In this document: positions 18,832-53,570 of the stretch, one piece after another
Numbering within the stretch: the stretch's first letter is position 1
How the letters are laid out: every line of letters starts with the position of its first letter
Source of the DNA: Eunapius fragilis
Lineage: Eukaryota > Porifera > Demospongiae > Spongillida > Spongillidae
Direction of reading: 5' to 3'
Assembly: GCA_963681505.1 (NCBI GenBank)
Contig: OY811978.1
Coordinates: 4,434,230 to 4,498,229, forward strand
Length of the DNA stretch: 64,000 bases
Notes under the pieces: model-generated
The model's input: the letters and a program-made list of their open reading frames with translations, nothing else
Databases searched by the model: none
What the model was told of the DNA's origin: nothing
Made by a program: the position numbers and the translations under genes

Positions 18832-18833
18832 TT

Positions 18834-20384: not shown

Positions 20385-20418
20385 GTCTGCAGCAAAAAAA
20401 AAAAAAAGTTAGTGTTTA

Positions 20419-21810: not shown

Positions 21811-21872
21811 CAATATCAGGTACTGGTACATATATATGTGTAAAGCCAATTGTTTAATATTAATTTCTATAG

Positions 21873-23636: not shown

Positions 23637-23704
<68 letters not shown>

Positions 23705-28084: not shown

Positions 28085-28316
28085 ACTCCTCCACTTCCAC
28101 CACTCTGGACAGCATTTATTCCAGACTAAACCTTTCCCTTGTGCGCTCGAATGCCAGAGCATTTCTTGCAAGGGCAGGTCCCCGTGCTAAAGTCTCAGAC
28201 CTCTACTTAGTTGGTTGACTCATACATAGTTACATAGTTTACTAGTTAAATACTTGTTTATCCTGTAGTACCTGTACGTGCATTTGTCTTTTTAACCATT
28301 AAAGTAATAATAATAA
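28085..28316 (+). mobile_element. 5'-truncated LINE, C-terminal end only
   Basis: Encodes the last residues of an RLE-LINE protein, 'IYSRLNLSLVRSNARAFLAR', then a stop near 28218, a short 3' UTR and an (AAT)n tail. Copy 2 of family A starts directly after that tail. Confidence 0.75.
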
Positions 28317-28320
28317 TAAT

Positions 28321-31300
28321 GCCATGTTGCCGATGCAATGGTCGCTACGCTCGCTGTAAGGGTGTTCGTGTGCAAAGGGAAACACCCCGTGTTTAGATTG
28401 TTACGCCGGACGTTATGGGAGGTGTAGGAATCTAACTGGACACTCCACGTCTCTATCCCTCCCGTCCACCACAGCGCCAACTGCACTACCTCCGTTTTCA
28501 CGGCCATCCTCTCCTGAATTGTTCCTCCCTACGTCACCATAGAGTCGCTCGTCCCAGCCCCAATACTCGCAACCCTCACCGGCCCTGTCCAGTCCTTCGT
28601 CTTTACCTAATTCACAGCAGCTGCCCGCACCACCTCTGTCGTCACTGACCACTCGACCGCTTTTGTCTCCCGCATCGTCCGAGTCACAACAGACCCCACC
28701 GATCTCGTCATCCACAACATCACAACATCCTTCCCTACCCCAGCCAGATACATCGCCCATCCGATCATCTACAATTGAATCCTCTCAGCAGCAGCTGCCC
28801 GGTCCCTCACATAGGCCTACTGCATTTCACCACTGCAATCGCCAGCCAACCGAAATAATAATTTTCACCTCCAGTCCGCGACACGCTCGTCTTCCCTTGG
28901 CCGCCCCAATCAGAAAGCAATGCACTGTTGATGGCTGCCAAGCTATGATTGCCCCATCCATGTGGCGCAACCACATGTCCCTCCATGCCAACGGAGCTCT
29001 CCCTGGAGCTGTTCCTTCAGAATGGTTGTTGGCACAAAACCTGTTTGTATGCCCACACTGCTACCAGTTAGTAGCCAACTCCACACATTCTACCCACTTG
29101 CAACGGTGCACACAGAGCACAGAGCCAGATTGTCAACATTTCACACTCACTCCCTTTGATACAAGATTCTCAGACCAATCAGGAGCTTCTGACTTTTGCA
29201 GAGGTGTGTCAGCTGAACCACCCAACACTGCGCTTTGTACCAGCTAAAGTCAGACCTGCCTTTGCACGGGCATTGTCTTCAACTCTGAAAGACATCCTCC
29301 TTCATAACACAGAAGAAGCATGGTTGAAGCTCTTCATGCTCCCGAAGTGTGCCCTCTCTTCTCTTAAACACAAAGGAGTCACCAACCCCCACACAACTAT
29401 TGAGTCAGCTTTGGCTTGACAATGACCTGATCACCCTCTGGGCAATGGCAAAAAACAGGGCCAATGACCTCAGCTCTACAAAGGGTCACCTCACATCTAA
29501 CAGCACCAAACGAACTGTCTCCTCTGTTGTTTCCCTGGGCCAAGCAGGGTTACTGGGCAAAGCCTGCCGAATTTTTTTGTCCAATAGCACTGCTCCAATC
29601 ACCGACACCACGTTACACTTGTTACAAGACAAGCATCCTTCCTGCCCAGTTCGTCTGTCTCCAGTATCGTCCTGAACCTGTTACACGCAGTCCTTCCTTG
29701 ACATCCTCCTCATCCTGAAATCTTTCCCAATTGGCCAAAAGGCACCTCTGCAGGCCCCTCAGGACTATCTGTGCAACACTTGCTGGATGCAACTTCAGTT
29801 CCCCTCCACTCACCAATCTGTGTCACCCTACGAGGAGTTGTTAATGTCTTGGCATCTGGTAAGGCCCCTAAATCTGAATCACCCTTCTTAGCTGGTGCTA
29901 GACTGATTGCCCTAAATAAAAACAATTCCAGGGAAAGTAGTGTGCTCACTGACATTAGACCCATTGTTGTTGGTGAAACTCTACGCAGACTGACAGGTAA
30001 GTGCATCTGTGCAATAATGAGGGATAGGTTTTTGCCCTTTTTCCAACCATCTCAGTCTGGTATAGCATGCAAGGCAGGTGCAGAGAATGTTGTCCACAGT
30101 TTGAGAAAGTGCATAGAAAATAACTGGGAGAGTATGTCAAATGCGTTCAATAGGGTATCCAGACAGGCTGTCCTTGATGAGTGCAGTCTCTTCTTTCCTG
30201 AATTGCTGCCCTGGGTGTCATGGTGCTATGATTCACATTCCAATCTGTGGCACCCCAAAGGTACAATCAGCTCACAGTCAGGTGTGCAGCAAGGGGACCC
30301 ACTGGGCCCAATGCTGTTTGCTCTTGTTCTTCAGAAACTTGTTTCGTGCATAGAACCAGATGACGGTTGCTTTCTTAATTTGTGGTATCTAGATGATAGC
30401 ATGCTCGCAGGTGAGAGGTCGGCAGTAGTGCGTGCCCTGCATTTGATTGAAGAGCTGGGGCCACGTTTAGTGCTTCACATCAATCTTTCCAAATGTGAAA
30501 CGGTCAGCAAGAATGGCAACTCCCATTTTCCAGATACAGTAAAGTCCTCCATCCTTCCTAATTTGGAGATCCTGGGGTCACCAATTGGGGACTTCATATA
30601 CTGTTCCCAATTCTTTGCTGAGAAACGCAGCCGTTTTAGGGCTTTGCTGAGAGCTTTAACTGATGTCTCTGCTGTTGACCTCCACGTTGCCATTTCACTT
30701 CTCCGCATGTGTGGTGGTTATTGCAAGTTTGTTCATCTAACTAGAACCACACCTGCAAGCCTCTGCTCAGACTCCCTAAAGCTGTTCGATGAAGAGGTGA
30801 GACATTGCTTTGCTTCTTGCCTAGCAGTAGATGTGCCTGACACTCAGTGGCATCAAGCTCAACTTTGCCCTAAGCTAGGTGGGCTAGGCCTTCGCTCCCT
30901 CTCTCTTCACTCATGTGCTGCCTTTATCTCTTCACTAGCAGCCTCAGACTTAGGGAGCCCAGACAACATTCACCTACAGCAAGCTGTTTCCCATTTTAAT
31001 GCCCAGGTTTCTCCACAGGATTCTCTTACTGTGGAAGCAGTGCTTAACACTCCCCCTCAACAGAAAGCCCTATCTTTAAACTTGACACCCACATGTTCCA
31101 AGCTCTAGTTTCTTCTGCTTCACCAGCCAACAAAGCTTGCATGTTGTCAGTATCTGCCCCCCATGCAAGTTCTTGGGTCTCTGTCATCCCCTCTGTAGGC
31201 TTGAACATGCACCTAGATTCAGAAGAGTGCCAAGTGGCTATCAGATGGTGGCTAGGCCTCGACACATCAACTGCTTCTTCTTGCCCCGTCTGCCCTGGGG

Positions 31301-32110
31301 CCGTACTGGACCCTCTTGGCCACCATGCAACCTCGTGTTGGCATGGTGGAGATGTGGTCACCCATCACAACCACCTTAGGGACACCTTTGCCGAACTCTG
31401 CCACCAAGCTCACCTGCCTGTAAGGGTTCCAGCTGATGTGTTGGTTCAGGGTTGGGATAGAGGCAAGCCTGCTGCCTTTGATATAACGGTCACTTCACCC
31501 CTCACTCCTGCCACCTTAAGAGATGCCAGTACTTCCTCAGGGGCAGCAGCCCATGCTGCAGAATGTAGAAAACATTCCACCAATGATGCCAGGTGTCAGG
31601 AGCTGGGGTGGGTGTGCATCCCACTGGCCGTAGAGACCTTTGGGCATTGGGTGAAGGAGGCCCAAAACGTGTTCTCATACCTGGCATCTTTACTGTCCAT
31701 CCACCAAGGTTGCTCCAAATCCGTTGCCCTGTTTGATATCTACAGCAGAATGAACATGGTTCTAGTTAGACCAACATCCAGGGCCATCATGGGCAGGGTA
31801 GTAGTTCTTTAGAACATTTGTGTGTAGTGTAGTGTAGTGTAGTGTAGTGTAGTGTAGTGTAGTGTAGTGTAGTGTAGTGTAGTGTAGTGTAGTGTAGTGT
31901 AGTGTAGTGTAGTGTAGTGTAGTGTAGTGTAGTGTAGTGTAGTGTAGTGTAGTGTAGTGTAGTGTAGTGTAGTGTAGTGTAGTGTAGTGTAGTGTAGTGT
32001 AGTGTAGTGTAGTGTAGTGTAGTGTAGTGTAGTGTAGTGTAGTGTAGTTAGTTCTTTGTTCTTGTGAGTGGTGTACTATTCATTCATGTAAATAATCAGA
32101 AGCATCAATA
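28321..32110 (+). mobile_element. RLE-type non-LTR retrotransposon, family A copy 2 (dead)
   Basis: The most complete copy. It starts right after an (AAT)n tract with an N-terminal Cys cluster: 'CRCNGRYARCKG', then after a 1-nt frame change 'CAKGNTPCLDCYAGRYGRC'. This is followed by a Ser/Pro-rich linker, finger-like motifs ('CTVDGCQAMIAPSMWRNHMS', 'CPHCYQLV'), RT, CCHC and RLE-like regions. The stop is TAG at 31810. Breaks: several frameshifts (near 29160-29350, 29670-29740, 31080) and an in-frame stop near 28543. A 27-nt in-frame deletion at 30133 removes 'GDFAVFKVD', including the first catalytic Asp of the RT. It shares with copy 1 the 42-nt deletion before the RLE motif. It arose with copy 1 by segmental duplication, since the flanks match. 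Confidence 0.85.
31822..32048 (+). repeat. (TGTAG)n tract in LINE 3' UTR, copy 2
   Basis: About 227 bp of essentially pure TGTAG repeat at the same place as in copy 1, but without its TGTAA/TGTGG variants. Confidence 0.95.
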
Positions 32111-32113: not shown

Positions 32114-32391
32114 AAGTAAAGAAAAACATTCTCTGACGAGAAAGTTGGTGGGATATAGGAATTGGAGGCAAAGGTGGTGTAAAAAGGAAGGGAACAAGGT
32201 TTTGGGAAAAGGGTAATGAGACAAAAATCCTATATTTAGCACTTCTTTTGGTTCGTTACATTTACACGTATAGGAATTTGTCTCATTTACCCTTTTCTCA
32301 AAACCTTGTTCCCCTCCTTTTTACACCACCTTTGCCTCCAATTCCTATATCCCACCAACTTTCTCGTCAGAGAATGTTTTTCTTTACTTGT
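32114..32391. mobile_element. Fold-back MITE, family F (copy 3)
   Basis: Counterpart of 18543-18831, with ends 'aagtaaagaaaaacattctc' and its mirror. The centre is slightly shortened. Confidence 0.9.
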
Positions 32392-32586
32392 TTCCTCTAT
32401 TTTTTTATTATCATTTTTTTTATCGATTATTAATACTAGCACATGCCACCCCCCCCCCCCCCCCTCCCTCCCCCCCCGCTTTAATTACCGTCGAGAATTC
32501 TAACTCGTCGTCTCGACTTTGGAGGTATTCCTCTCGTTGTTTACCACTCCATATTACGTACTAATGATTACGTATATCAGTTTTAT

Positions 32587-33083
32587 GCTTTATTCATATA
32601 TCTGATACCTGAAGATGTCCTTCCAGGAGATTCTAAAGCGATTGGTATAACTTGCGCTCTTTAAATATCCCGAGTTGTACTCGCGCGAGAAGAATTAGAC
32701 GACGACGACGACGACGACGACGACAGAGAAGAACTGGCCTGGGGACGAGGAAAAACACGACCTTTTTTGTTCTCTTGAAGCAAACAGTTTGAAGACTGGA
32801 ACAAAACACTTAAATGACTGTCTTTGCCTTCTGGTTCGCTAGGAACAAAGAGCTAAACTATCCGTTATTCATGGATACTATGTTTTGAGGAGCTTTACAC
32901 TTTCAATGGTATTGTCTGGTCGTCGTTTGGTAGTAACTTCAAGCATAGGCGGATAACCCTCGACCAATACTTCCTGATGCTGGCTAGACTTGTATTGGAT
33001 GCAAGTTATACGCTGGTCGCGTTTTTAAAATGATATTCACGACCCGGGTCAATTCTCCTATATAGGACTACTATCGTAGTTCC
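32587..33083 (-). mobile_element. Non-autonomous repeat, family H (copy 2)
   Basis: Counterpart of 19030-19386, with an extra stretch of about 120 bp at 32875-33000 absent from copy 1. A (GAC)n expansion lies at 32698-32724. It is interrupted by a LINE insertion after 33083. Confidence 0.65.
33070..33083. repeat. Target-site duplication, left copy
   Basis: 'actatcgtagttcc' is repeated exactly at 34319-34332. It is present once at the empty site in unit 1 (about 19373-19386). Confidence 0.9.
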
Positions 33084-34318
33084 GTGGAAATTAAATACTT
33101 TATTTATTATAAAAAAGCACAATCATACTCACATAGACTAAAAACTAATAGTAAATACAATAAATGTAATATACAGAATACATAATACATTTAGACATAT
33201 GGTGCAAAAACAATAATAATATTACACATTAATAATTGCTTTCTTATTATTAACAGGAATACAAGATGCAGCAGAATACACTAATCAGAATAAATGCACT
33301 AAATAACGAATGCTATTATTAATACATACATACATATCCAGACACACTGAGACACACTGGCTATGAAAGTGACAATGGGGAACTATCCCCCTCCTGAAGG
33401 GAACAGCCACACCGTAAGAGGAGGGCTCGGGCATTGGCTCGCACAAGAGTCAAATTAAGGTGGCCATACAAGCTGCAGACAACCTTGGACTTGGGGGAGT
33501 TGGTCCTTGTGGCAAGGTATGATGCAAGCCGTGAAAAAGCTTGCATCACTTCGTTGCCCCAGGCTCCATGTGACTCGGCCACAAGGGGAATACATGTCCA
33601 CCCTAGCTCGGAACACTTGGCATCATTGGCAGAGTGCTTCCTTAGCTCAGCAGCAACCGCTGCTGACCCTGCTGTGCGACCCACTTCAGAGATAAGAGTA
33701 GGGTTAAGCGGCGACACCACAGTAAGGTCAAAGGCAGCAGGCTTGCCACAGAGCCAATTGGAAGCTAGGATGTCAGCAGGGCGTGTGTTCTGAAGCTCAT
33801 GTCTTAGTCCACTACCGGCCTCTGCCTTGGCGCTGATGCAGGCATGATGGCAGGTTTTAAGCACTACATCCCTGAGCTTGTTGTGCCTGGATACAGCATC
33901 ACCACCTCTCTTACATGTTATTGCATGGTGACCTAGGGGATCCAAGGGATGTTCTGGACACAATGCACAGGGAGGTGAGCCAGGTGAGGTGTTTAGCCCC
34001 AGTCACCACTTGATGGCCATTTGGTGCTCGTTGGGGTCTAAGCTTAGACCCAGGCCTGGAGATGGTACTACAGAGGGCATGGGGAGAGGAGATAGACAGG
34101 AGACGAGCCTTGTCACATTAAATAAAAATGATAATGACAAGAACTTTTTAAGCATAACGTTCAGGCAGAGATACTAGGTAACCCTGCTCCATCATCCATT
34201 CCAAATGCACTCCTCCATTTGGTGCGGGAGCCCCTCAGACAAAGGTTTGTTGCTCTGAGGATTGCAAAAGACAGTCGTGCTCTCATCCATCCCAATACCT
34301 CACTATTTGACTTTTCCC
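33084..34318 (-). mobile_element. 5'-truncated RLE-LINE insertion (minus strand) with TSD
   Basis: A 1,235-bp insert bounded by a 14-bp target-site duplication. The minus strand holds the end of a LINE protein: 'VPSPGLGLSLDPNEHQMAIK', a TGA in place of Trp, 'LGLNTS', the CCHC motif 'CALCPEHPLDPLGHHAITC', then 'RPADILASN' and 'KPAAFDLTVVSP', and a C-terminal 'LTLVRANARALLLR' (33361-33963 is open). The 3' UTR runs to 33084. The first 130 bp of the insert (34187-34318) encode a different conserved-looking peptide, 'GWMRARLSFAILRATNLCLR', so the insert is chimeric. Confidence 0.8.
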
Positions 34319-34332
34319 ACTATCGTAGTTCC
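34319..34332. repeat. Target-site duplication, right copy
   Basis: Exact repeat of 33070-33083. It is followed by the original (AAT)n tract of the family-H element. Confidence 0.9.
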
Positions 34333-34334
34333 TG

Positions 34335-34379
<45 letters not shown>
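34333..34379. repeat. (AAT)n tract, 5' junction of the LINE array
   Basis: About 45 bp of TAA/AAT repeat. The orthologous tract in unit 1 (19387-19403) is shorter and has no insertion. Confidence 0.9.
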
Positions 34380-34381
<2 letters not shown>

Positions 34382-34870
34382 ACCTGGTGCCCAATTGGTC
34401 CACAGGCAAACCAGCTGCTTTCGACATCACAGTGACCTCTCCGCTTAACCCTATTTCTTTGCCCGAAGCGAAGGTCACTGGTGGTTCTGCAGCTCGGATG
34501 GCCGAGATGCGCAAACACATCTCCAACGACCCCAAGTGCAGGGCCTTGGGGTGGGTTTGCATTCCACTGGCCGTCGAGACCTATGGGTGCTGGGGAACAG
34601 AAGCCAGGGGCTCCTTCTCTCGTGTAGCAGCTCGGCTGGCCTTACAGCTACATTGCAGTAAGTCCAAAGCCTTGGTCAGCATTTACCAATGGCTGAACCT
34701 CACTTTGGTTCGCTGTGCAGCCAGGGCCTTACTTTCCCGTGTCGGCACCCAGACCCCAGAGGGTTAAAATCTTTAGTTTAGGACTCCCAAGTGATGTCAT
34801 TTTGTTCATGTTATTGATACGTGCTACTGTTTAATGTTGTAATGTTATTTTGAATAATTATTATTAATAA
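34380..34870 (+). mobile_element. 5'-truncated RLE-LINE, family C
   Basis: Starts at the (AAT)n tract inside the RLE region: 'GKPAAFDITVTSPLNP', then 'ALGWVCIPLAVETYGCWGTE', and stops at 34765. The 3' UTR 'gtcattttgttcatgttatt' ends in AAT repeats. The same 3' UTR appears alone at 39619. Confidence 0.85.
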
Positions 34871-34880
34871 TAATAATAAT

Positions 34881-37560
34881 ATAGAAAATAACTGGGAGAG
34901 TGGAGACTTTGCAGTTTTCAAGGTGGATATGTCAAATGCGTTCAATAGGGTATCCAGACAGGCTGTCCTTGATGAGTGCAGTCTCTTCTTTCCTGAATTG
35001 CTGCCCTGGGTGTCATGGTGCTATGATTCACACTCCATTCTGTGGCACCCCAAAGGTACAATCAGCTCACAGTCAGGTGTGCAGCAAGGGGACCCGCTGG
35101 GCCCAATGTTGTTTGCTCTTGTTCTTCGTAAGCTTATGTCCAGCATAGAAGCAGATGACGGGTGCTTTGACCTAAGTCTTAATTTGTGGTATCTGGATGA
35201 TGGCGTGCTCGCAGGTGAGAGGTCGGCAGTAGTGCGTGCCCTGCATTTGATTGAAGAGCTGGGGCCACATTTAGGGCTTCACATCAATCTCTCCAAATGT
35301 GAAATGTTCAGCAAGAATGGCAACTCCCATTTTCCAGATACAGTAAAGTCCTCCATCCTTCCTAATTTGGAGATCCTGGGGTCACCAATTGGGGACTTCA
35401 TATACTGTTCCCAATTCTTTGCTGAGAAACGCAGCCATTTTAGGGCTTTGCTGAGAGCTTTAACTGATGTCTCTGCTGTTGACCTCCACGTTGCTATTTC
35501 ACTTCTCCGCATGTGTGGTGGTTATTGCAAGTTTGTTCATCTAGCTAGAACCACACCTACCAGCCTCTGCTCTGACTCTCTAAAGCTGTTTGATGAAGAG
35601 GTGAGACATTGCTTTGCTTCTTGCCTAGACGTAGATGTGCCTGACACTCAGTGGCATCAAGCTCAACTTTGCCCTAAGCTAGGTGGGCTAGACCTTCGCT
35701 TCCTCTCTCTTCACTCATGTGCTGCCTTTATCTCTTCACTAGCAGCCTCAGACTTAGGGAGCCCAGACAACATTCACCTACAGCAAGCTGTTTCCCATTT
35801 TAACACCCAGGTTTCTCCACAGAATTCTTTTACTGTGGAGGCAGTGCTTAACACTCGCCCTCAACAGAAAGCCCTATCCTTTAAACTTGACACCCACATG
35901 TTCCAAGCTCTAGTTTCTTCTGCTTCACCAGCCAACAAAGCTCGCATGATGTCAGTATCTGCCCCCCCATGCAAGTTCTTGGGTCTCTGCCATCCCCTCT
36001 GTAGGCTTGAACATGCACCTAGATTCAGAAGAGTGCCAAGTGGCTATCAGATGGTGGCTAGACCTCAACACATCAACTGCTTCTTCTTGCCACTTCTGCC
36101 CTGGGGCCGTACTTGACCCTCTTGGCCACAATGCAACCTCGTGTTGGCATGGTGGAGATGTGGTCACCCATCACAACCACCTTAGGGACACCTTTGCCGA
36201 ACTCTGCCACCGAGCTCACCTGCCTGTATGGGTTGAAGTGGGATATGGCCTATCTGGAGATCATATCAACACACGTCCAGCTGATGTGTTGGTTCAGGGC
36301 TGGGATAGAGGCAAGCCTGCTGCCTTTGATATAACGGTCACTTCACCCCTCACTCCTACCATCTTAAGAGATGCCAGTACTTCCTCAGGGGCAGCAGCCC
36401 ATGCTGCAGAATGTAGAAAACATTCCACCAATGATGCCAGGTGTCAGGAGCTGGGGTGGGTGTGCATCCCACTGGCCGTAGAGACCTTTGAGCATTGGAG
36501 GAAGGAGACCCAAAACGTGTTCTCACGCCTGGCATCTTTACTGTCCATCCACCAAGGTCGCTCCAAATCCGTTGCCCTGTTTGATATCTACAGCAGAATG
36601 AACATGGTTCTAGTTAGATCAACATCCAGGGCCATCATGGGCAGGGTAGTAGTTCTTTAGGACATTTGTGTGTAGTGTAGTGTAGTGTAGTGTAGTGTAG
36701 TGTAGTGTAGTGTAGTGTAGTGTAGTGTAGTGTAGTGTAGTGTAGTGTAGTGTAGTGTAGTGTAGTGTAGTGTAGTGTAGTGTAGTGTAGTGTAGTGTAG
36801 TGTAGTGTAGTGTAGTGTAGTGTAGTGTAGTGTAGTGTAGTGTAGTGTAGTGTAGTGTAGTGTAGTGTAGTGTAGTGTAGTGTAGTGTAGTGTAGTGTAG
36901 TGTAGTGTAGTGTAGTGTAGTGTAGTGTAGTGTAGTGTAGTGTAGTGTAGTGTAGTGTAGTGTAGTGTAGTGTAGTGTAGTGTAGTGTAGTGTAGTGTAG
37001 TGTAGTGTAGTGTAGTGTAGTGTAGTGTAGTGTAGTGTAGTGTAGTGTAGTGTAGTGTAGTGTAGTGTAGTGTAGTGTAGTGTAGTGTAGTGTAGTGTAG
37101 TGTAGTGTAGTGTAGTGTAGTGTAGTGTAGTGTAGTGTAGTGTAGTGTAGTGTAGTGTAGTGTAGTGTAGTGTAGTGTAGTGTAGTGTAGTGTAGTGTAG
37201 TGTAGTGTAGTGTAGTGTAGTGTAGTGTAGTGTAGTGTAGTGTAGTGTAGTGTAGTGTAGTGTAGTGTAGTGTAGTGTAGTGTAGTGTAGTGTAGTGTAG
37301 TGTAGTGTAGTGTAGTGTAGTGTAGTGTAGTGTAGTGTAGTGTAGTGTAGTGTAGTGTAGTGTAGTGTAGTGTAGTGTAGTGTAGTGTAGTGTAGTGTAG
37401 TGTAGTGTAGTGTAGTGTAGTGTAGTGTAGTGTAGTGTAGTGTAGTGTAGTGTAGTGTAGTGTAGTGTGGTGTAGTGTAGTGTAGTGTAGTGTAGTGTAG
37501 TGTAGTTAGTTCTTTGTTCTTGTGAGTGGTGTACTATTGTTTCTTGCTCTACAGTAAATA
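34881..37560 (+). mobile_element. 5'-truncated RLE-LINE, family A copy 3
   Basis: Begins after (AAT)n within the RT domain ('FAVFKVDMSNAFNR'). It keeps 'SGVQQGDPLGPMLF' and 'YLDDGVLAGE', and it retains the 14 residues ('EVGYGLSGDHINTR') that copies 1 and 2 have lost before 'PADVLVQG'. One extra C in a C-run near 35965 shifts the frame. Stop at 36658. It then has the (TGTAG)n tract and an AAT-rich end. Confidence 0.87.
36670..37506 (+). repeat. (TGTAG)n tract in LINE 3' UTR, copy 3
   Basis: About 837 bp, almost pure, with one TGTGG unit near 37467. It is the longest of the three tracts. Confidence 0.95.
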
Positions 37561-37578
37561 ATTAATAATAATAATATT

Positions 37579-37672
37579 AGCGGCATCTATTGTAAGTTAG
37601 TTATACTTATAATAATGTTATTGTGTTTGTCCTTTTATCCTGCTGTAACTGTATTCTGTTGTCAATAATAAT
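37579..37672 (+). mobile_element. LINE 3' UTR-only insertion, family B
   Basis: Only the family-B 3' UTR is present ('agcggcatctattgtaagtt' to 'ctgtattctgttgtcaataa'), between AAT-rich tracts. This is an extreme 5' truncation. Confidence 0.75.
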
Positions 37673-37704
37673 TATCCAAATAAAATAATAATAATAATAA
37701 TAAT

Positions 37705-38733
37705 CAGGATTTGGTAGTGCCGATAACATACACATGCTTCAGGCTGTGACCCGCTTCAATACTCTGGCTTCCCCTGATGAGTCAATCACAGCTGAGGAGG
37801 TTCTGGTCAACCTGCCTCCACAAAGAGCTCTGTCTAAGAAGCTGGATATGCATGTTTTCCAATCGCTGTTATCTTCCTCCTCTCCAGTGAATAAGGCTCG
37901 GATCCTTTCTGTTTCTGCCCCTCATGCGGGATCTTGGATCTCAGTCATCCCTTCTACTGGTCTGGATCTGCACCTTAACTCTGCTGAATGTCAGATAGCA
38001 CTCAGATGGTGGTTGGGTCTTGACACCTCTGGAGGTTCTCTGTGTCCACATTGTCCTGATATTGCCCTTGACCCTCTAGGTCATCATGCAGCCTCCTGCA
38101 GACATGGTGGTGATGTGGTTGCAAGGCACAATCACTTGCGGGATATCTTTGCTAACTTTTGCCGCCAGGCCCAAATTTCTGTGAGGGTTGAAGTTGGGTA
38201 TGGCTTAGCTAGGGACCATGTTAACTCTCGCCCTGCGGATGTCCTTGTTCAGGGATGGGACAGAGGAAAGCCTGCGGCCTTTGACGGTACTGTTGCTTCA
38301 CCCCTTACACCAGTAACCCTCAACAATGCCAGTACATCTGTGGGAGCAGCAGCCTATGCTGCTGAACTTAGAAAGCATGTGGCCAATGACACCAGATGCC
38401 AGGAGTTGGGGTGGACATGTATCCCCCTAGCTGTAGAAACATATGGTAACTGGGGGAAGGAGGCCCAGAGTGTTTTTCCCCGTCTTGCCTCTCTACTTGC
38501 CATCGGCCAGGCCATTCCCAAACCCAAAATGCTGGGTGACATCTATGGCCACTTCAACATGTCACTGGTGAGGTCAGTGGCTAGGGCCATCATGGGGAGA
38601 GAAAATGTCCGGATTGGTTAGAAGAACTGTAGGTTTGTTAGCGGCATCTATTGTAAGTTAGTTATTCTTAAAATAATGTAATTGTGTTTGTCCTTTTATC
38701 CTGCTGTAACTGTATTCTGTTGTCAATAATAAT
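37705..38733 (+). mobile_element. 5'-truncated RLE-LINE, family B copy 1
   Basis: Starts after (AAT)n. One open frame runs to the stop at 38619 and covers 'FQSLLSSSSPVNKARILSVS', the CCHC 'CPHCPDIALDPLGHHAASC' and 'SRPADVLVQGWDRGKPAAFD'. It reads 'FDGTVASP' where relatives have 'FDITV', changing a residue next to the presumed catalytic Asp. It is nearly identical to 42459-43437. Confidence 0.87.
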
Positions 38734-39085
38734 CGGAAGTTTCGTTAGAAACTTCCATATAGGATTTGACCCCGACTATGAATGTCATTAAAAAACGCGA
38801 CCCGTCTGTAACAACACTCCCGACGATCGGATCTTGTAGCTTGTTTTAGCAATCGATCTAGAAGTCAAAAATGAGTAGTTTCGTTTTTGTTTCATGTCGC
38901 TGAACCGCGTGGTTGTTGAGAACAAGAGTGTACTGCCCGTCCTCGTACCCAGTCTCGGAACAAGGGGCGGGTCGTCTTCTTCTTCTTCTCCTTCTTCTTG
39001 CCCACGCATAACTCAGGACAGGAACATTTCTAAGCGATGAAAATTTCACCAATAGCTTCAGAATCGGCTGGAGGACTCGCTTTTA
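38734..39085 (+). mobile_element. Non-autonomous repeat, family H (copy 3, opposite orientation)
   Basis: The terminal hairpin 'ggaagtttcgttagaaacttcc' (22 bp) is split here as 'ggaagtttcgt' and 'tagaaacttcc'. It continues 'atataggatttgaccccga' and 'aaaaaacgcgaccc', mirroring the copies at 19030 and 32587. Confidence 0.55.
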
Positions 39086-39127
39086 TATAATATAATACTT
39101 TGATAAACAATCGACTATCAGCCTCCT

Positions 39128-39278
39128 ATGTCTTGTTAGTCTCGTACCCAGACCGTCTATGACGTAAGCGATTATCGCTGTAAACACTACGTCCATACGT
39201 ATGGACGTAGTGATTATACTATTTACAGCGATAATCGCTTACGTCATAGACGGTCTGGGTACGAGACTAATGTCTTGT
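39128..39278. mobile_element. Palindromic MITE with 9-bp target-site duplication (Mutator-like)
   Basis: The element body is 39137-39269. Its 48-bp arms start 'tagtctcgtacccagaccg' and end with the exact mirror, and a second perfect palindrome ('actacgtccatac' and mirror) lies in the middle. It is flanked by the exact direct repeat 'atgtcttgt' (39128-39136 and 39270-39278). A 9-bp duplication is typical of Mutator-like elements. Confidence 0.85.
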
Positions 39279-39312
39279 ATAATTAAATGGTATGAAAAAA
39301 AAAATAAAGAAA

Positions 39313-39598
39313 ACAAGTAAATAAAAACATTCTCTACGAGAAAGTTGGTGGGATATAGGATTTGATTATGACATTGGTGGTGTAAAAAGCAAGGAAACAA
39401 GGTCTTATCAGAAGGGAAAATGTCATAGTCCTATATTTAGCACACAAACAACACATGCCCTATAAATGTGCTAAATATAGGACTATGACATTTTCCCTTC
39501 TGATAAGACCTTGTTTCCTTGCTTTTTACACCACCAATGTCATAATCAAATCCTATATCCCACCAACTTTCTCGTAGAGAATGTTTTTATTTACTTGT
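39313..39598. mobile_element. Fold-back MITE, family F (copy 4, near-perfect palindrome)
   Basis: Arms of about 138 bp look identical in inverted orientation ('acaagtaaataaaaacattc' and mirror), around a loop near 39450. The lack of differences suggests that this is the youngest copy. Confidence 0.9.
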
Positions 39599-39618
39599 AA
39601 TAATAATAATAATAATAA

Positions 39619-39690
39619 GTCATTTTGTTCATGTTATTGATACGTGCTACTGTTTAATGTTGTAATGTTATTTGGAATAATTATTAATAA
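39619..39690 (+). mobile_element. LINE 3' UTR-only insertion, family C
   Basis: Only 'gtcattttgttcatgttatt' through 'taatgttgtaatgttatt' is present, the same as the 3' UTR at 34790-34860. It lies between (AAT)n tracts. Confidence 0.75.
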
Positions 39691-39747
39691 TTAAAATTAA
39701 AAATATATATATAATAATAATAATAATAAAAATAATAATAATAATAA

Positions 39748-40870
39748 GCAGAGGAGGGTTGGGCATGAGGTCTCTGTCCCTACACTCACCTGCAGCATTC
39801 ATTGCATCTTTATGCTCTTCTGGCTATGGCTCCCCTTCCAACCACCATCTCTCTGATGCAATACAGAAATTCAATGAGTCTGTATCTCCTTCTGATGCAA
39901 TTCAGTCTGATGGTTTAGTTTCAACTTCAGTCCATCAAAATCAACTTTCGAGCAAGATTGACATCCATCAGTTCAATAACATCCTGATCGTTTCTTCTGT
40001 TGCTGAAAAGGCTCGTTTGTTGTCTGTCTCATCCCCACATGCTGCTTCATGGCTAACTGTAGTCCCTTCTGAAGGTCTCGGCCTTCATCTTGAGCCCTCA
40101 GTATTCCAGGTAGCAGTCAAGTGGTGGCTTGGTTTGGACACCTCCAATGGTTCTCTGTGTGCCTTATGCCCAAACAGTGCATTAGATCCCCTTGGTCATC
40201 ATGCTACAACGTGCAAATAAGGAGGAGACGTAGTCACCCGACACAACTAGCTGCGCAATGTGTTGGCGGAGACTTGCCGTAGAGCCCACTTGAGCGTAAA
40301 GGTGGAGATGGGTAGCAATCTTACATCTGAGCATGACCATTCACGCCCTGCAGACATTTTGCTACCCAACTGGGCCCTTGGCAAACCAGCTGCCTTTGAT
40401 ATTTCAGTGACATCACCACTAAACCCCAAAATTGTTTCAGTAGCGGGATTGTCAGCTGGGGCAGCCGCCTTGTCCACTGAAGAGCGAAAGCATACTGTGA
40501 ATGACCCCAAATGCAATGCTTTGGGCTGGTATTGTGTACTTCTGGTCACGGAGTCCTATGGTGCTTGGGGAAAGGAAGCCATGGACTCGTTTAAGATGCT
40601 TGCCTCCCGTCTTGCCATCATATCGAGCAAACCAAAGTCAGTTGTGCTGTCTGACCTGTATAGCAGGCTCAACTTGCATCTGGTGAGGGCAAATGCGACA
40701 GCAATCCTTTCCAGGTGGCTCCCATCTTAAAGTTTATTGAACTGTAGCATGATTTATTAATAATTCATGCATGTTGTTTCTCCTCCTAAATATTGTATTC
40801 CTATATTATTATTAATGTATCTTGATAGCATTCCTATAATTATTATTATTAAAGTTATACTTAAAAATAA
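39748..40870 (+). mobile_element. 5'-truncated RLE-LINE, family D
   Basis: Begins after (AAT)n at 'GMRSLSLHSPAAFIASL'. The CCHC is 'CALCPNSALDPLGHHATTC', followed by a TAA at 40218 and a TAG about 30 nt later in the same frame. It then stays open through 'SRPADILLPNWALGKPAAFD' to the stop at 40728. The 3' UTR ends in AAT repeats. Confidence 0.85.
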
Positions 40871-40888
40871 TAATAATAATAATAATAA

Positions 40889-41880
40889 CTTCTACTGATG
40901 AATTGCTGACTTCACCCAAAAATCAGAAGGAGCTTTCTAGTAGGATTGAACATAGTCAGTTTCATGCACTCTTTGAGTCCTCTTCACTGCCAAATAGGGC
41001 ACGGCTATTATCAGTCGCATCCCCTCATGCTGCTTCGTGGCTTTCAGTTGTGCCATCTCCTGGACTCAACCTACATCTGGAATCTGCAGAGTTCCAAACT
41101 GCAATAAAATGGTGGCTTGGGATTGACCTATTCAGTGGGGAGAAATGCCCTTGTTGTCTTACCTTGTCATTAGATCCCTTGGGTCACCATGCATTAACTT
41201 GCCGATATAATGGTGACGTGGTCTCTCGCCACAATAGGTTCGGAATAGTTTTTTTGAGTCTTGTAGGCAGGCGGGTATTGGTGGCCAAATGGAAGTTGGA
41301 AGTAGTTTGGGACATGATGCCCGACGTACAAGGCCAGCTGACGTGCTTGTTCCTAATTGGGTTCTGGGAAAACCTGCAGCTTTTGACATAACTGTCACAT
41401 CACCGCTTACTCCAATTACTCTACATGAAGCTAGTGTGACAAGTGGGTCAACTGCTCAGGTGGCTGAAAACAGAAAACATGCCAGCAATGACACAAAGTG
41501 CTCAGAGCTTGGGTGTGTGTGTGTACCTTTGGCAGTTGAGGTTTATGGATGTTGGGGTCCTGAAGCACAGACAAACCTTTCTCGACTTGCAGCGCGCCTG
41601 GCAATTAGATTAAATTGTTGCAAGTCCCAGGCCACTTCGGCTCTCTATGGCAGGTTAAACCTGGTCCTAGTTAGAGCGAATGCCAGAGCTCTGCTGTCCC
41701 GTTCAATGGCAACTGGATGTTAGTCTCCTCACCTTCTTCGTTTCAGTGAATTGTTTTTTGTTTAGTAACATTGTGTAGCTTAAAACTGTAAATGTTGTAC
41801 ATGGAGTATCAACTTAGTGAAATAACTTATAATTGTGTTTGTGTGTTGTACATCATCCTCATGTTTCGTAAAAAAAAAAA
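40889..41880 (+). mobile_element. 5'-truncated RLE-LINE, family E
   Basis: Begins after (AAT)n. Encodes 'NRARLLSVASPHAASWLSVV', the CCHC 'CPCCLTLSLDPLGHHALTC', then after a frameshift near 41250-41290 'TRPADVLVPNWVLGKPAAFD' to the stop at 41721. The tail ends in poly-A then (AAT)n. Confidence 0.85.
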
Positions 41881-41882
41881 AA

Positions 41883-41912
<30 letters not shown>

Positions 41913-41913
<1 letters not shown>

Positions 41914-43437
41914 GGTTCTAGCAGGGGAGAGGTCTGCAGTAATACGTGCTCTGCACCTCAAAGAAGAGCTTGGTCCTCACTTGGGGCTTTACATCAATTT
42001 TTCCAAGTGTGAACTTTTCAGTAGGAGTGGTAATTCGCTATTTCCACCAGTGGTGAAGTCATCTCTCCTTCCCAACCTGGACATCCTAGGGGCCCCAATT
42101 GGAAATTTTGTCCACTGTTCTCGCTTCATTGCTGAGAAATGTGCAATGCCCAAGATCTTGCTTAAGGCTCTTGTGGATGTCTCTACAGTTGACCTTCACG
42201 TGGCCTTTTCGCTTCTTTGTATGTGTGGAGTTACTGTAAGTTAGTGCATCTAGCCTTAGCCACTCCTCCAAGCCATTGTGCTGACTATCTTAAGCTCTTT
42301 GATGAGGAGGTAAGGCTATGCTTCACCTCCTGCATTGCAGTGGACGTCCCTGACCCAAATTGGCAGCAAGCACAACTCAGTCAAAGTTTTGGTGGGCTTG
42401 GCTTTCGGTCCCTTGCTTTGCACTGTTCTGCTGCGTTTATAGCTTCCCTTGCTTCATCAGGATTTGGTAGTGCCGATAACATACACATGCTTCAGGCTGT
42501 GACCCGCTTCAATACTCAGGTTCCCCCTGATGAGTCAATCACAGCTGAGGAGGTTCTGGTCAACCTGCCTCCACAAAGAGCTCTGTCTAAGAAGCTGGAT
42601 ATGCATGTTTTCCAATCGCTGTTATCTTCCTCCTCTCCAGTGAATAAGGCTCGGATCCTTTCTGTTTCTGCCCCTCATGCGGGTTCTTGGATCTCAGTCA
42701 TCCCTTCTACTGGTCTGGATCTGCACCTTAACTCTGCTGAATGTCAGATAGCACTCAGATGGTGGTTGGGTCTTGACACCTCTGGAGGTTCTCTGTGTCC
42801 ACATTGTCCTGATATTGCCCTTGACCCTCTAGGTCATCATGCAGCCTCCTGCAGACATGGTGGTGATGTGGTTGCAAGGCACAATCACTTGCGGGATATC
42901 TTTGCTAACTTTTGCCGCCAGGCCCAAATTTCTGTGAGGGTTGAAGTTGGGTATGGCTTAGCTAGGGACCATGTTAACTCTCGCCCTGCGGATGTCCTTG
43001 TTCAGGGATGGGACAGAGGAAAGCCTGCGGCCTTTGACATTACTGTTGCTTTACCCCTTACACCAGTAACCCTCAACAATGCCAGTGCATCTGTGGGAGC
43101 AGCAGCCTATGCTGCTGAACTTAGAAAGCATGTGGCCAATGACACCAGATGCCAGGAGTTGGGGTGGACATGTATCCCCCTAGCTGTAGAAACATATGGT
43201 AACTGGGGGAAGGAGGCCCAGAGTGTTTTTCCCCGTCTTGCCTCTCTACTTGCCATCGGCCAGGCCATTCCCAAACCCAAAATGCTGGGTGACATCTATG
43301 GCCACCTCAACATGTCACTGGTGAGGTCAGTGGCTAGGGCCATCATGGGGAGAGAAAATGTCCGGATAGGTTAGAAGAACTGTAGGTTTGTTAGCGGCAT
43401 CTATTGTAAGTTAGTTATACTTATAATAATGTAATTA
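41913..43437 (+). mobile_element. 5'-truncated RLE-LINE, family B copy 2
   Basis: Begins after (AAT)n just beyond the RT active site ('AGERSAVIRALHLKEELG'). One base is lost near 42236 ('MCG' then 'KLVHLALATPP' in a new frame), after which it is open to the stop at 43372. It keeps 'FDITVALP' at the RLE core. The 3' UTR is cut at 43437, where unit-2 sequence homologous to about 21463 resumes. Confidence 0.87.
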
Positions 43438-43535
43438 TTGATGACTGATGATAATACCACTAAATTAAATGGTCTTATTTCAAAATTGTGTAGTTACTAT
43501 CTCTCATCTCATGAAGAAATTAAAAACAGATGAAA

Positions 43536-43800
43536 TAAGTAAACATTATCTATGAGAAAGTGGTGGCATAGGATTGGAGAACAATAGTGGTGTAAAAAAG
43601 GAAGTCAAATAATAAGGGAAAATGTAATAGTCCTATATATTTTGCCCATTTGTAGGACATTATGTTTGTGTGCGTAATATAGGATTATTACATGCATTTC
43701 CGTTATTAATTGACCCTTGTTTCCTTCCTTTTTACACTACCATTGCCTTCAAATCCTATATCCCACCAACTTTCTCATAGAGAATGTTTTTTTCACTTGT
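43536..43800. mobile_element. Fold-back MITE, family F (copy 5)
   Basis: Counterpart of 21553-21810, with arms 'tatgagaaagtggtggcata' and 'ctttctcatagagaatg'. More diverged at the centre. Confidence 0.8.
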
Positions 43801-43960: not shown

Positions 43961-46900
43961 GTAAGTTTTAGTGTGCGGCAAAGTTCAACAGATAAATGTC
44001 TACAGTGATCAGTAATTTACATTGCACTGTGGTGCAATCTTCTGTAAGGACGCAAGGTTATATGTAACAATGGTTTGGATCTATTTTATGTATGTTAGTG
44101 ATACAAACTTGAGAATGTTCTTTACAAAGTTGTTCTATACTAGTCATAACACATACTGATTTGCTTGTTATCAATATTTTCACTTTCCGCTCTTATTTGT
44201 GGTAATCCACTAGTTGTCATTATCAATGCTATTATGAAACCAGCTATGGTAAAACATATTGACAATACCGATCGAACACTTATTTTCATCACATTACTAA
44301 ATTATAGCATAAGAATGGCAGTAGCGGGTTTAAACACCCTCCCCCCCCCCTCCCAGCCCTTCCATAATATTATTCATAGCAGAGAATTAGGCAACCTGCA
44401 TTGATAGTTGTGAATAACTCATTAACCCCCTTTATCTGCCACGCCCCCTTTGTACTTCCGCCTCTGAAATGGTCACATCTTACACAAGCTAGTTCAGTTG
44501 TATCACATGTTTTCATATACGGTACAGATTAAGTCAGTATATAGCCTTGCTTACTAGGCCTTGTTAGTGCTTCCACATTACTGCTTTGCCTCACCATTGG
44601 TAGTGTACTACTAGAGTGGGGAGTACTGTTCTACATCAAGAACATGGCTGAATACCAATTGTCCAAATCATATAATTAAGACATCCCTCTCCATCCTCTA
44701 TGTTAATTATATTCTGACACATCTTCCCTTCATCTCAGGTGCCTGCCAACAGTTCACCCTCAGTTACCCACCTACGGGTACCTACTCATGTCCTGGAAGC
44801 AACATTACATACACCTGTGTTCTTTGCTCAAGCTCTGCTGCTGTGACCACAGTGTGGAGAGGATCAGCCTTTAACTGTCCCTCCACTGGAAGCCAAGTAG
44901 CTAACAGACTAGCACTCTACCAGAAGTCAGATGAAGTAGTTAACCCTCATGCTAGTGGATCATGTGGTAATCTCTCTGCTGTGACAACAAGTATCTCCGA
45001 AAATTGCTACACATCTGTCCTCACCATTCCTGCTGTTCAGGGTCTGAATGGAACCACAGTTATGTGTGTGGATGGTGTTACAAGAGCTGTTGTGGGAAAT
45101 GATACTGTGAATGTGAAAGTGACAGGTGAAATGGACTGAGTAAATTTAATGTTATGGATTTACTTGAAAGATAATAAGGACATACAGTCTACCCTCGATA
45201 TTGTCCGCTTTGATACAGTCCATCCACGATAATATCCACTATTTTTCTCTTGCCAACCAACCCTTTGTAAGCTAAACTTCGCATCGCTACTATCCGTTTG
45301 TCCTACAGTCCGCTATTTTGGGGGCTCCCATAGACCGGACTATATCGAGGGTAGGCTGTAATACAAGTATGCCTAAAGGCTTATGGCTATACTTAGTGCT
45401 AAAGAAAACTAACTTTGGCAACTATTCCTTACTGGTGTGCTTAGCATGGCCTACTTGGTATATTCGCTCACCTAATGTATGGAATGCATTCTGCATGATG
45501 ATATGGTGACCAATCACATTGATGTCCCTACCCACCTCCCTCTCCCAGTATCTCCTGGTCCTGTTGGGAACATGAGAGTAAGCAGTACATCTGTGAACCA
45601 GCTAACAGTGACCTGGACCCCTCCCACTACTGGTGGTGTTCCTACCAGCTACAATGTCAGTATCAATGACAGCAGTAGTCCTGTGGTCATACCTGATAAT
45701 GGATCATCACTGTACACCCACACCTTCACTGGACTGATCAGTGACACACTCTACACTGTATCAGTGGTGGCCATCAACTGTGCTGGGACCAGCAATGTGA
45801 CATCAGAAATAGAATCAACAGGTGATTATTTCTATAAAAATAATTTTTACTTCCATATGTTTTTCCATATGCGTATTTTTAGATTATGTGCATGTGTTTG
45901 AGCATGTGTTTGTGTGTGTATTTCACAAAATGAGCGCTCTAATCATGCAGTGTGACATCAGAAACAGAAGTGACATGTGATTAAATAAATATTTAGTGTT
46001 ACTTCCATGGTTTGTGTGAGTATGTGTGTGTGTGAGTGTGTGTGTGTGTTGGTGTGCATCACTACATATCGTTACATGTTGCATTGGGCCACCTTTCTTG
46101 GCTTGTGATGCTTGGCTTGATACTTCACCACAGCCACCATGATCTCAATAGTATCCGTATGAGCCTGCATATGGAGGGAAGGGGAAGGGGAGGAGGGGTA
46201 ATGGTATCCTCACAAGCCATCCACATGCACATTCCCCATGTGGGTATGAAAGCTATTTCATGCCATGTGTGCTCCAAACCATTTCTTCCATTCACAGTGG
46301 CACAGCCTCCAAATAGTAACAGTATCAGTGTTATTGTGGATAGTACCAAGACCCTCCCCCTTCTGTACATCATGTGGACATCTGTGGTAGGCAATAATGT
46401 GTCACATGACCCAGTGATGAACCTTTGGTCACCTCCAGGGAGGCAGTGTGACCATGTACACAGTGAGGGTTGTTGGTGATGGTACCTCTGTTGGTAAAGG
46501 CACCACTAACTGTACCACTTCAACATGTCTCTATGTCCAAGAAATCTCTACCTTTGCCACCAGTTATGTCATCTTTATTGCTTCCATAAATGGAGATGGA
46601 GATGTGGGTCCTGCAAATAATTCAACTATTAATGGTTAGTCTATTATTCTTAAATAATCTTTACGGCCAGATCTAAAGTATTATCTCATGGCAAGATCTT
46701 GCCAAAGTAATAAATGTAACATTGGTCTCATATGTATACTCGCTTATTTGATTTCATATGAGGACTATTATACCATTATCTAACATAACAGAAATGTATG
46801 ATAATGTATAATAAAAATGTATGATCAAACAAGAAAAAAAAAACACTGTATGTTTAAATGTTTACTTCCAGTCATCAACAACATCAAAGTGGTGGACTAT

Positions 46901-49900
46901 GGTGTTTCCAATGCATCCATTCAATGCTCATTTCAGGACAACCAGTCTCTCTACTGCTTAGTGTGCTGCAGTACTGAGCCAACAGCTCCCCCTAACTCAA
47001 GTGTGTACAACATCTCCTCTACCAGAGGCTCAAAGGTGACTGTTGACCTTGATGGCCTCACCAGTGGTCAGACTTACTACTGCAAGGCAGCAGCTACCAA
47101 CAACAATTCCAGTCCTTACAACTGCACCTTCCCTGGGTTTGGTGGTGTTAATGTGTTCCTCACCTTCACTACAATGCTAACATCAAAGGACACACCAGAC
47201 ACAGGTGATGATGATCTTAAGACATCAATACTTGTATCATGAATCATTCACACACATTACCTCTCTGTCCACAGTAGGAGTTGAGATGCCTCTTCCAGGT
47301 ATATTGCAGTGCCATTATTCCCTATGTAATGAAAGCCTCATCTGTTGGCAGACCAGGTAGTGATAATCCTACTTGCCACTCTCCTCCCTGCTGTTGTGGT
47401 GGTGACCATGGTAACCATCGTGGTGCTTTTATTCATTTGTGTCCAGAAGACGAGACAAGGTTTATTTCAAACACATGGAAGTATTCATGCGCTGTTGATT
47501 GTACAATTGATGCACACATCCAACCATGTCATACACACATCATTACCTACAGGGGGCACATCTGAAAGGTGAATATATTGTTGCACTGTAGTCATGGTTT
47601 AAAGGTGTCCATGTATGCACATGATGGAAGCAGAGGATATTATTGTGGTAGCAGCTGTGGTGCTATTAACCTTAATATAGCCATTGCTGTATTTATATAA
47701 TGTTCTTTAGTACCATTAATGATTTCATACGTTCAGGCATCACATGCCCACCTCATATGGTGTTAATGCAATGTATGAAGAAGTAACCTTACCACGGACC
47801 CCAGCTGATCATATGGATGGGGGGATCCAGGCATCTACAACCAAGGTGGCTATGGATGGATATTCCACACCTGGTGATAAGGTAAAAATTTAGGCAACTG
47901 TGTGATCAAATGCACAGAACAAATACCTCTGTATGGATTTGTCCCGCTGTTCAAGTGCAATATTTTGGAATGTGAAAGATTGGTATAAACATTGAAAAGT
48001 AATATAGTTGATTCTTTAAATGTAATGGCAAACTCACTTTTATTCTCTTTCAGATGAAACCGCACCCTGCATCCTATATACACCCAGACACAGGGTGCAC
48101 ATATGGCCTCCTGGAGGAGCTGAGTGGACCATTGAAGGGGAAAGAGGCTGCCATAAAAGTGCACAGTCCAAACATCACGGACCTAGTGAGCATAGTTATA
48201 ACCATATGGCATGTAGGGTCTATGTGAGGATGAACCTGCATGTTTGCAGTTTATTATTTTAAAGATAAACAGCCCGAGGGGCTCAGCTGTATATCCAAGA
48301 GGCTCCACAATGCTGCCTATATATTTCACATTAAGACATGGTACCATACAAACAAAGATTATTATGTCAATACTTGTATACACTTCCTTGTTTTCACACT
48401 TTTATTTATTGCACATCCTTCATCCTCATAGTAAATATAAATGTCTTTTGTTTTTCATAAATAGGAATCACATATATCACTATGCAAACTGTACCAATAA
48501 CATGGCTATGTAGAGATAGGCTCTATATAGAGTTAGTAACTGGTACCACCACATACTTAACCATGCACCTCCACACTGACTGTCACTATACATCACCTCC
48601 TATACACACCTTCTATGGGAGAGGCTAGGATTGGAGATATTAGGTGGACTGGTGACTACTAGGTGAGGCATTTGTTTATCCTGTTGGGGTGGAGCTCCTG
48701 TGTGTCTGCCAGTGGGTGTCCCTAACATGGAGGGTCTGTCATGCTGTCAGGGAGGGGATAATAAAGACATGTGTAACACAAGACCTTTCAATGAGCTGAC
48801 ATGAGAGACAATAGAACCTTTCAGTACCAGGCACACCCACTGTATTGTAATCAATAGGGCATGTCACAAGCTTGTGCAGATATATTACATTACCATGTAC
48901 ATTTACATACACAATGGTTAGGAACAGAATACCAACAAAAGGGCTGCAAGCCTATACCACCACACCTATAATTACTATCACATCCCTTTACATTTTAGCT
49001 TCCCTCCCACACCTACCCCTCCCACACCCTCCCCTCCCACACCTTTCCCTCCCACACCTTCCCCTCCCACACCTTCCTCTATGTGTTAGAGGATGTTGTC
49101 TTAATATTTTGAACAACACAAGGGACACAAACACTCACCTTTACATGCACACTGATGTGCAAGAACATGTAATCATTTCTGCCATTGCACAGCCAAGGTT
49201 ACACAGCGCATTTCCTGTCACTGATGATGGCTATACTCTGTCTGCAAAGGCAGTCTCCCGACATGAGGCATCAGGTGGCAATGAAGGTGTGCATACATGG
49301 TTACTAAGAGATTCACTTACTGTACACCCAATGCACATACAGTATGCATGTATCATTCATAAGCTGAGCTAAATATCCGGCTTATTGCATATAAAGATCA
49401 TTAGACCACCAATGAAGGGCCATAATTTAGCATTGGTTATTAACTTAAATGCATTACGTAACAGAGCAATGTATCAGATGGGCATATGACCTTTTCGCTT
49501 GCATACATCTTAACCTGTACTCTTACTGATTATGGTCAAGCTCTCATGATGGTGTCCCATCAAGTCCTGGTCCTGGTCCCTGAAGGTGACTATGCTCTGC
49601 CTGTGGATAAAGGAGTATGTAAGAAGACTGAAGCACCAGGAGAGTATGCATGTAAGTTGTATGGTACATAGGTACTGGAGGTTAGTCATGTAAGCTGTAT
49701 GGTACATAGGTACTGGAGGTTAGTCATGTAAGCTGTATGGTACATAGGTACTGGAGGTTAGTCATGTAAGCTGTATGGTACATAGGTACTGGAGGTTAGT
49801 CATGTAAGCTGTATGGTACATAGGTACTGGAGGTTAGTCATGTAAGTTGTATGGTACATAGGTACTGGAGGTTAGTCATGTAAACTGTATGGTACATAGG

Positions 49901-51639: not shown

Positions 51640-51750
51640 AAAGTACACGTAACGTTTGCGTAGCGTTAGCGTCGCACGCAATTAACGTTGACGCACAGAT
51701 TGCGTGGGACTAGCGTAGCGTTTTGGGAACGTAGCGTTTGAGGGACGTAG
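51640..51750. repeat. CpG-rich CGTAGCGTT cluster, left part
   Basis: Repeated 'gcgtagcgtt' and 'acgtagcgttt' words in an otherwise AT-rich region. The cluster continues at 53527-53570, so a hAT element split it. Confidence 0.7.
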
Positions 51751-53327: not shown

Positions 53328-53359
<32 letters not shown>

Positions 53360-53526: not shown

Positions 53527-53570
53527 CGTAGCGTTTTTATGGAACGTAGCGTTTTATAGAGACTACGCCC
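53527..53570. repeat. CpG-rich CGTAGCGTT cluster, right part
   Basis: 'cgtagcgtttttatggaacg' and 'tagcgttttatag' continue the cluster at 51640-51750. Confidence 0.6.

Follow-up and report, generated by a model that had tools for sequence, protein, structure and literature searches.

Introduction

The LINE R2 has a strict target in the rDNA (28S), and MoTeR is an element of the RLE type. The core idea examined here, that LINEs enter TAA or other repeats and that arrays form in which the copies are joined by such repeats, has precedents. For Dong, an RLE-type element of the R4 lineage in Bombyx mori, excerpts of one report give a 5' junction made of TAA repeats, together with a T7/TAA/Dong primer and a product with "7 TAA repeats" upstream (PMC3774820). 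HERO elements are described, in an extract of another study, as RLE LINEs of which some families are microsatellite-specific, and Togen families as specific for (TG)n (PMC4640811). In Pyricularia oryzae, MoTeR elements insert in telomere repeats and are arranged in tandem, each copy parted from the next by a few repeat units, and long arrays are attributed, in the part of the text available, to amplification at failing telomeres (PMC8381367).

Here, we describe an array of LINE copies joined by AAT tracts in the window (the whole 64-kb stretch of Eunapius fragilis DNA that was analysed, situated on contig C8), along with related copies in the genome searched, which comprised 219 Mb in 24 contigs. 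Like Dong, the present RLE-type copies have 5' junctions in TAA repeats (11/23 truncated and 3/4 untruncated ends). Unlike Dong, which self-cleaves at its 5' end, they gave no HDV-like ribozyme match in Rfam up to E 5 at the 5' ends examined (window positions 28000-29000 and loci L089, L090 and L092), with models that may miss R2-type ribozymes; they also differ from Dong in that several diverged subfamilies share the target and in the position of the start codon, which is at the junction or close to it. The repeat unit of Togen, (TG)n, differs from the AAT of the present elements, and the extract on these families makes no mention of arrays. As in MoTeR, tandem copies are parted by short target-repeat tracts, both in the window and at locus L027; unlike the telomeric MoTeR target, the present target is an interspersed AAT microsatellite, and neighbouring copies are of mixed subfamilies. 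What is new here is the measured clustering at tracts, the mixture of subfamilies and the start codons at the junction, and we found no account of the present lineage or of AAT-joined LINE arrays in the titles and abstract openings of the open-licence papers searched.

The explanation that we favour, with a probability of roughly 85%, is that these RLE-type LINEs, a diverse lineage, integrate by target-primed reverse transcription, that they favour (AAT)n/(ATT)n microsatellites strongly but not invariably, and that the target survives insertion, so that chains of copies build up. Microsatellite targeting by RLE LINEs becomes countable in this one chromosome-scale genome, and chained copies of different subfamilies form a natural record of insertion order. 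The system is a test bed for the way in which an RLE recognizes a simple repeat, and it is relevant to the question of why certain microsatellites turn into collecting points for transposons.

Classification of the elements

Judged by their sequence motifs, the copies are LINEs of the RLE type, as a preliminary description of this DNA had held. Their RT matches Pfam RVT_1 and carries the motif YLDD (FLDD in one piece). The closest solved RTs by sequence in the PDB are 9nl3 and 9dou, both named R2, and 8gh6 and 8ibw (E 0.0002-0.0013). The latter two, which are PDB entries titled reverse transcriptase-like protein, we take to be R2 as well, and R2 chains were the only LINE RTs matched in the PDB; 8gh6 reads YADD where the present RT has YLDD. 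Downstream of the RT, a knuckle of the form CX2CX9HX4C was found in 15 translated pieces (from subfamilies A/B, C, D, E and G and from two sample copies); it was not matched in L012, though the piece of that copy spans the region, and the F pieces do not cover this region. An excerpt of a published account gives the knuckle spacing of RLE LINEs as CX2-3CX7-8HX4C (PMC5678591), which makes the spacing of the present copies one residue longer, the layout being otherwise that published for RLE LINEs. The knuckle is followed by a PD...D core, recognized by motif as RPAD...GKPAAFD(I/L)(T/S)V and RKHxxND in most of the pieces that cover the region. Among seven pieces scanned with Pfam, of which a single one was N-terminal, none matched an AP endonuclease, and upstream of the RT one copy has C2H2-like and CCHC-like fingers. 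A profile of the C-terminal part gave no match against PDB sequences up to E 1. The AlphaFold model of the endonuclease, built from a window-only alignment (A1), had a mean pLDDT of 41.7 and was therefore set aside.

Organization of the array

Between 34335 and 43437, eight LINE pieces follow one another on the + strand in the subfamily order F, B, C, C, F, D, E, C, where the letters A-G are labels of this analysis and the boundaries of the array were set partly by eye. Every one of them starts directly after an AAT tract, and their truncation points differ. The first tract of the array, (AAT)15 at 34335-34379, is followed by a 3' fragment of an F copy (34380 to ~34860, placed by sequence reading and subfamily alignment) and by a B copy that starts inside the RT, reaches the 3' end and has (GTGTA)n in the 3' UTR (34882 to ~37562). 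Then come a scrap of a C 3' UTR, comprising its final ~100 nt (~37577 to 37683), the 3' part of another C copy, which ends in 9 nt of AAT (37705 to ~38733), and a scrap with the final ~70 nt of an F 3' UTR (39619 to ~39690). The right part of the array consists of the 3' parts of a D copy (39748 to between ~40805 and 40862), of an E copy with poly(A) at its end (40889 to ~41880) and of a C copy (41913-43437). The AAT tracts at the joints, likewise on the + strand, lie at 34865-34881, 37563-37576, 37684-37704 and 39598-39618 in the left part and at 39711-39729, 39731-39747, 40866-40888 and 41883-41912 in the right part. In the D copy, the UTR common to other D copies stops near 40805, and two further tracts on the other strand (40804-40814 and 40839-40851) are both near its 3' end.

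The preliminary description had reported eight starts in a single orientation, two scraps of 3' UTR and a mixture of subfamilies, all of which our reading of the sequence reproduced: in an alignment of the C-terminal part, the subfamilies share 41-68% protein identity with the C copy. The 3' UTR of the last copy, at 41913, is indeed cut off at 43437. Of the seven 3' ends that had been described as leading into a tract, six enter a clear AAT tract; the seventh belongs to the copy at 37705, where AAT spans just 9 nt (38725-38733) before other DNA begins.

About 860 nt without array LINE sequence lie between this C copy (to ~38733) and the tract at 39598-39618. This gap holds a hairpin with perfect 132-nt arms (39313-39444 and 39467-39598) and a 22-nt loop, which looks like a foldback or MITE-type element. 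Related pieces, which are inverted-repeat copies, occur at 18535-18846, 21563-21815, 32114-32393 and 43518-43800, and by eye a sequence resembling the hairpin follows the D copies L035 and L037. The (GTGTA)n arrays, of 46 to 168 units, occupy the 3' UTRs of three A/B copies (17974-18474, 31822-32052 and 36670-37510), and related tails in L039 and L053 have, by eye, only a few units.

On its + strand, the window contains 11 perfect AAT tracts of at least 11 nt. Ten of these border array copies or the pair of copies at 28305; the eleventh is the tract of unit 1 that is orthologous to the first tract of the array, and it has no LINE beside it. That this tract is empty had been noted before, with its position given as 19387-19403 in place of 19390-19405 (+ strand). 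When the flanks from unit 2 were joined in a script, they aligned to positions 19283-19420 of unit 1, tract included, and the tract therefore predates the insertions. In a part of unit 1 that unit 2 lacks, an open frame on the minus strand (19569-20408) carries a CX2CX4HX4C knuckle (CYSCGKPGHIAKVC) and appears gag-like by eye.

Just before the array lies a minus-strand RLE copy of the G subfamily (33084-34318), which is flanked by a 14-nt target duplication, ACTATCGTAGTTCC, at 33070-33083 and 34319-34332. The right-hand duplication stops 2 nt short of the first array tract, and the first nick for this copy would have been made 2 nt from the tract edge. At locus L021, both flanks carry a less perfect repeat made up of TTAAGAGGT and AAT units.

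The pattern recurs, as had been proposed, in the pair at 28085 and 28321. Here, an A-type 3' fragment (28085-28304, + strand) is separated from the copy beginning at 28321 by an AAT tract (28305-28320, + strand) that runs into the start codon of that copy. At locus L092, the left flank is the same but the fragment is absent: by eye, and in a gappy alignment, the flank is followed by a 9-nt AAT run that leads straight into the 5' end of the neighbouring copy, which looks as if the fragment had landed in the tract ahead of a copy that was already present.

Where the 5' end is untruncated, (AAT)nG gives the ATG right after the AAT run, which is 16 nt long in the window copy and 9 nt in L089 and L092; in L090, the closest 9-nt AAT run ends ~26 nt ahead of the ATG. 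Thus 3 of the 4 untruncated 5' ends read stand directly behind an AAT run of 9-16 nt, and since two of them, L092 and the window copy, belong to units on C8 that are related to each other, there are at most three independent cases. The start codon of the LINE ORF at or within ~26 nt of an AAT run leaves almost no 5' UTR in these copies (28305-28325, L089, L092 and L090).

Target preference at element junctions

For the scoring of junctions, we drew 20 D loci and 20 F loci by similarity rank, not by the presence of AAT, and the counts below refer to these two subfamilies, with A, B, C, E and G outside them. The window copies, their mirror copies, two apparent duplicates (C21:5318506 and C18:5992259) and C3:8512706 were left out. 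A junction was scored as positive when an AAT or ATT tract lay within 15 nt of it, at cut-offs of 9 nt and 12 nt. Of the F loci, 11/20 were fetched on the 3' side only, and L056 consists of two F copies, with the 3' score taken from the downstream copy only. On the 5' side, 3/20 D copies extend past the fetched DNA, the majority 5' boundary was used in place of the lowest one in some D copies, and the boundary could be placed in 6 F copies.

Tracts are enriched at both ends. A tract of at least 12 nt was present at 24/40 3' junctions (D 10/20, F 14/20) and at 11/23 5' truncation junctions (D 6/17, F 5/6), the association being clearly weaker in D than in F; at the lower cut-off of at least 9 nt, the 3' junctions with a tract numbered 12/20 in D and 16/20 in F, with 21 of these 28 tracts reading AAT and 7 reading ATT. 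By comparison, tracts were found at 0.42% (at least 9 nt) and 0.10% (at least 12 nt) of 192,846 control positions in 20 evenly spaced 10-kb stretches, these controls being unmatched for A/T composition. None of 29 internal control positions had a tract, and neither did 19 of 20 flank positions ~270 nt further out (1/20 with a tract). The tracts at the two ends also co-occur. Among the 22 copies scored at both ends, 9 had both tracts, 8 had neither, 1 had only the 5' tract and 4 had only the 3' tract, so that 9/10 copies with a 5' tract also had a 3' tract, versus 4/12 without (Fisher P 0.011; L056 was omitted because its two ends came from different copies). From these counts, roughly half of the scored copies are located in a tract, and the others lie outside.

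The claim that this family targets (AAT)n therefore stands as a strong preference (24/40 and 11/23 versus 0.1%) and fails as a strict rule, with 12/23 5' junctions outside. Whether most junctions lie outside AAT, which had been named as the observation that would speak against targeting, receives a different answer at each end of the 40 D and F copies: 3' junctions without a tract of at least 12 nt are in the minority (16/40), and at the 5' end they number 12/23. Strict AAT targeting was rejected, as many junctions have no tract, including those of six loci from the systematic sample (L012, L013, L015, L016, which is a doubtful 84-nt match, L022 and L025) that show, by eye, no tract at their visible ends.

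Origin of the tracts at 3' ends

Four F copies on four contigs share the tail (TAA)5TGGCGAAAA, which is followed by different second tracts, as would be expected if the RNA had run through the tract of the source copy. This tail was apparently transcribed, and this is the only sense in which a copy brings its own target. Elsewhere, the tract past the 3' end is AAT or ATT after varied stops in the UTR and therefore appears to be mostly leftover target sequence. The earlier suggestion that the family rebuilds its target at each 3' end is thus correct in part: it fits the four F copies whose tail holds (TAA)5, and does not extend to most of the other tracts.

In the best-surviving alternative, which we nevertheless regard as unlikely, AAT would be the element's own 3' tail, produced during reverse transcription as in LINEs whose ends are short repeats, and new copies would join the A/T-rich tails of older ones without any genomic preference for AAT. 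The four F tails agree with this, as does the AAT reading, in the element sense, of 21/28 3' junction tracts; yet the tract of unit 1 is empty, with no LINE beside it, 5' truncation points are also located at tracts, and 7/28 of the 3' tracts read ATT. Moreover, D copies end at varied points of the UTR ahead of the tract, and the E copy of the window has poly(A) first and AAT after it.

Copies at AAT tracts across the genome

We return to the favoured reading, a preference for genomic (AAT)n tracts, with a search that started from the tracts. The pattern (AAT)8 has 834 occurrences, overlaps included, and the tract-centred set consisted of all 20 distinct (AAT)8+ tracts of the 25-Mb contig C1. 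LINE sequence of the present group was found within 185 nt of 14/20 of these tracts, and on both sides of 7. In 13 of the 14, the best matches lie in the AAT sense, and in one (L069) in the opposite sense. The same LINE search was positive in 35/481 control windows, and in 7/356 once the five loci from which the search library had been drawn were set aside. There was no LINE within 185 nt at 6/20 of the long C1 tracts; one of these, L085, lies ~180 nt past the end of a listed copy.

A second count used 384 distinct copies, which are the best-scoring matches among thousands of first-look candidates and from which mirror copies, matches lacking the C-terminal end and one match that was probably split had been removed before counting. 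At 9/20 AAT tracts on C1 and at 10/23 of those listed on C2, at least one of these copies lay within 5 kb; the corresponding figures were 0/10 for the (AGG)7 sites listed, which come from the first 7.8 Mb of C1, and 1.5% for positions drawn at random from that contig. (AAG)7 was dropped as a second microsatellite control because its listed sites all belong to one array.

A second alternative, a general preference for AT-rich or open DNA of which AAT tracts are just one part, is quite improbable. Some junctions fit it: where a tract is missing, the sequence often looks A/T-rich by eye (L030, L037, L045 and L046), and the head-to-tail joint of L091 is, by eye, poly(A) without AAT; against this stand the several hundred-fold excess of tracts of at least 12 nt over controls, though these are unmatched for composition, the drop to 1/20 positions ~270 nt further out, and the LINEs at 14/20 tracts in the tract-centred test.

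The copies are also clustered. The 384 copies form 55 neighbour pairs within 3 kb, versus 2.3 expected (at most 9 in 2000 random placements). Of these pairs, 40 are head-to-tail, 9 tail-to-tail and 6 head-to-head (40/55 versus one half, P 0.001), the joints of the 40 head-to-tail pairs having been read only at fetched loci. There are three five-copy clusters, the one in the window included, and clusters occur on many contigs. Locus L027, from the 200-kb systematic sample, is a further array, in which four fragments are linked by three AAT joints. In the tail-to-tail examples L036, L051 and L065, by eye, the 3' end leads into ATT and then into the reversed tail of another copy. The picture of sites that collect several copies, drawn from the window in the preliminary description, is thus supported by the 55 pairs (2.3 expected) and by the 14/20 C1 tracts with LINE sequence.

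A third alternative replaces repeated insertion by tandem or segmental duplication, with recombination between AAT tracts, as the source of the arrays. In its favour, units 1 and 2 and a large inverted repeat show that the region has been duplicated, microsatellites can recombine and the array does not end, on its right side, at the orthologous position. It is very improbable all the same, since the window neighbours belong to five subfamilies with different truncation points, clusters are found on many contigs, and tail-to-tail pairs joined through a tract also exist.

A model for insertion and chain growth

According to our preferred explanation, target-primed insertion into (AAT)n/(ATT)n, a putative endonuclease would nick the DNA inside the tract or a few nt outside it, and the free 3' end at the nick would serve as primer for copying the element RNA into cDNA. 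The majority of copies are 5'-truncated, and part of the tract would remain on each side, so that the site would stay usable for further copies of any subfamily. Later copies would most often take the same orientation, and repeated independent insertions would give chains that are mostly head-to-tail, with a minority of tail-to-tail or head-to-head arrangements. The orientation bias may come from pairing of an A- or AAU-ending RNA with the ATT primer. We infer this RNA-primer pairing as the cause of the bias, as well as the position of the nick and the recognition of the tract itself.

A more far-reaching joint reading seems possible to us, though we tend to doubt it: a radiation of RLE subfamilies would share an (AAT)n landing platform that survives insertions, is sometimes carried by the RNA and supplies the first letters of the start codon, in elements with little or no 5' UTR, and most long tracts (14/20 on C1) would be docking sites that grow with use.

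Surroundings of the array

Two further observations concern the DNA around the array. An inverted repeat with long, 100% identical arms around 200 N joins window positions 45149-64000 to C8:4500007-4514572, and outside the window the LINE array recurs in mirror copies, whose coordinate sums are constant save for one shift of ~485 bp; the inverted repeat could be a fold-back or haplotype misassembly, or else a very recent inverted duplication. Beside the arrays, duplicated pieces of a receptor-like gene, Ig/FN3-like by eye, are present at 22636-24918 and 44615-47242.
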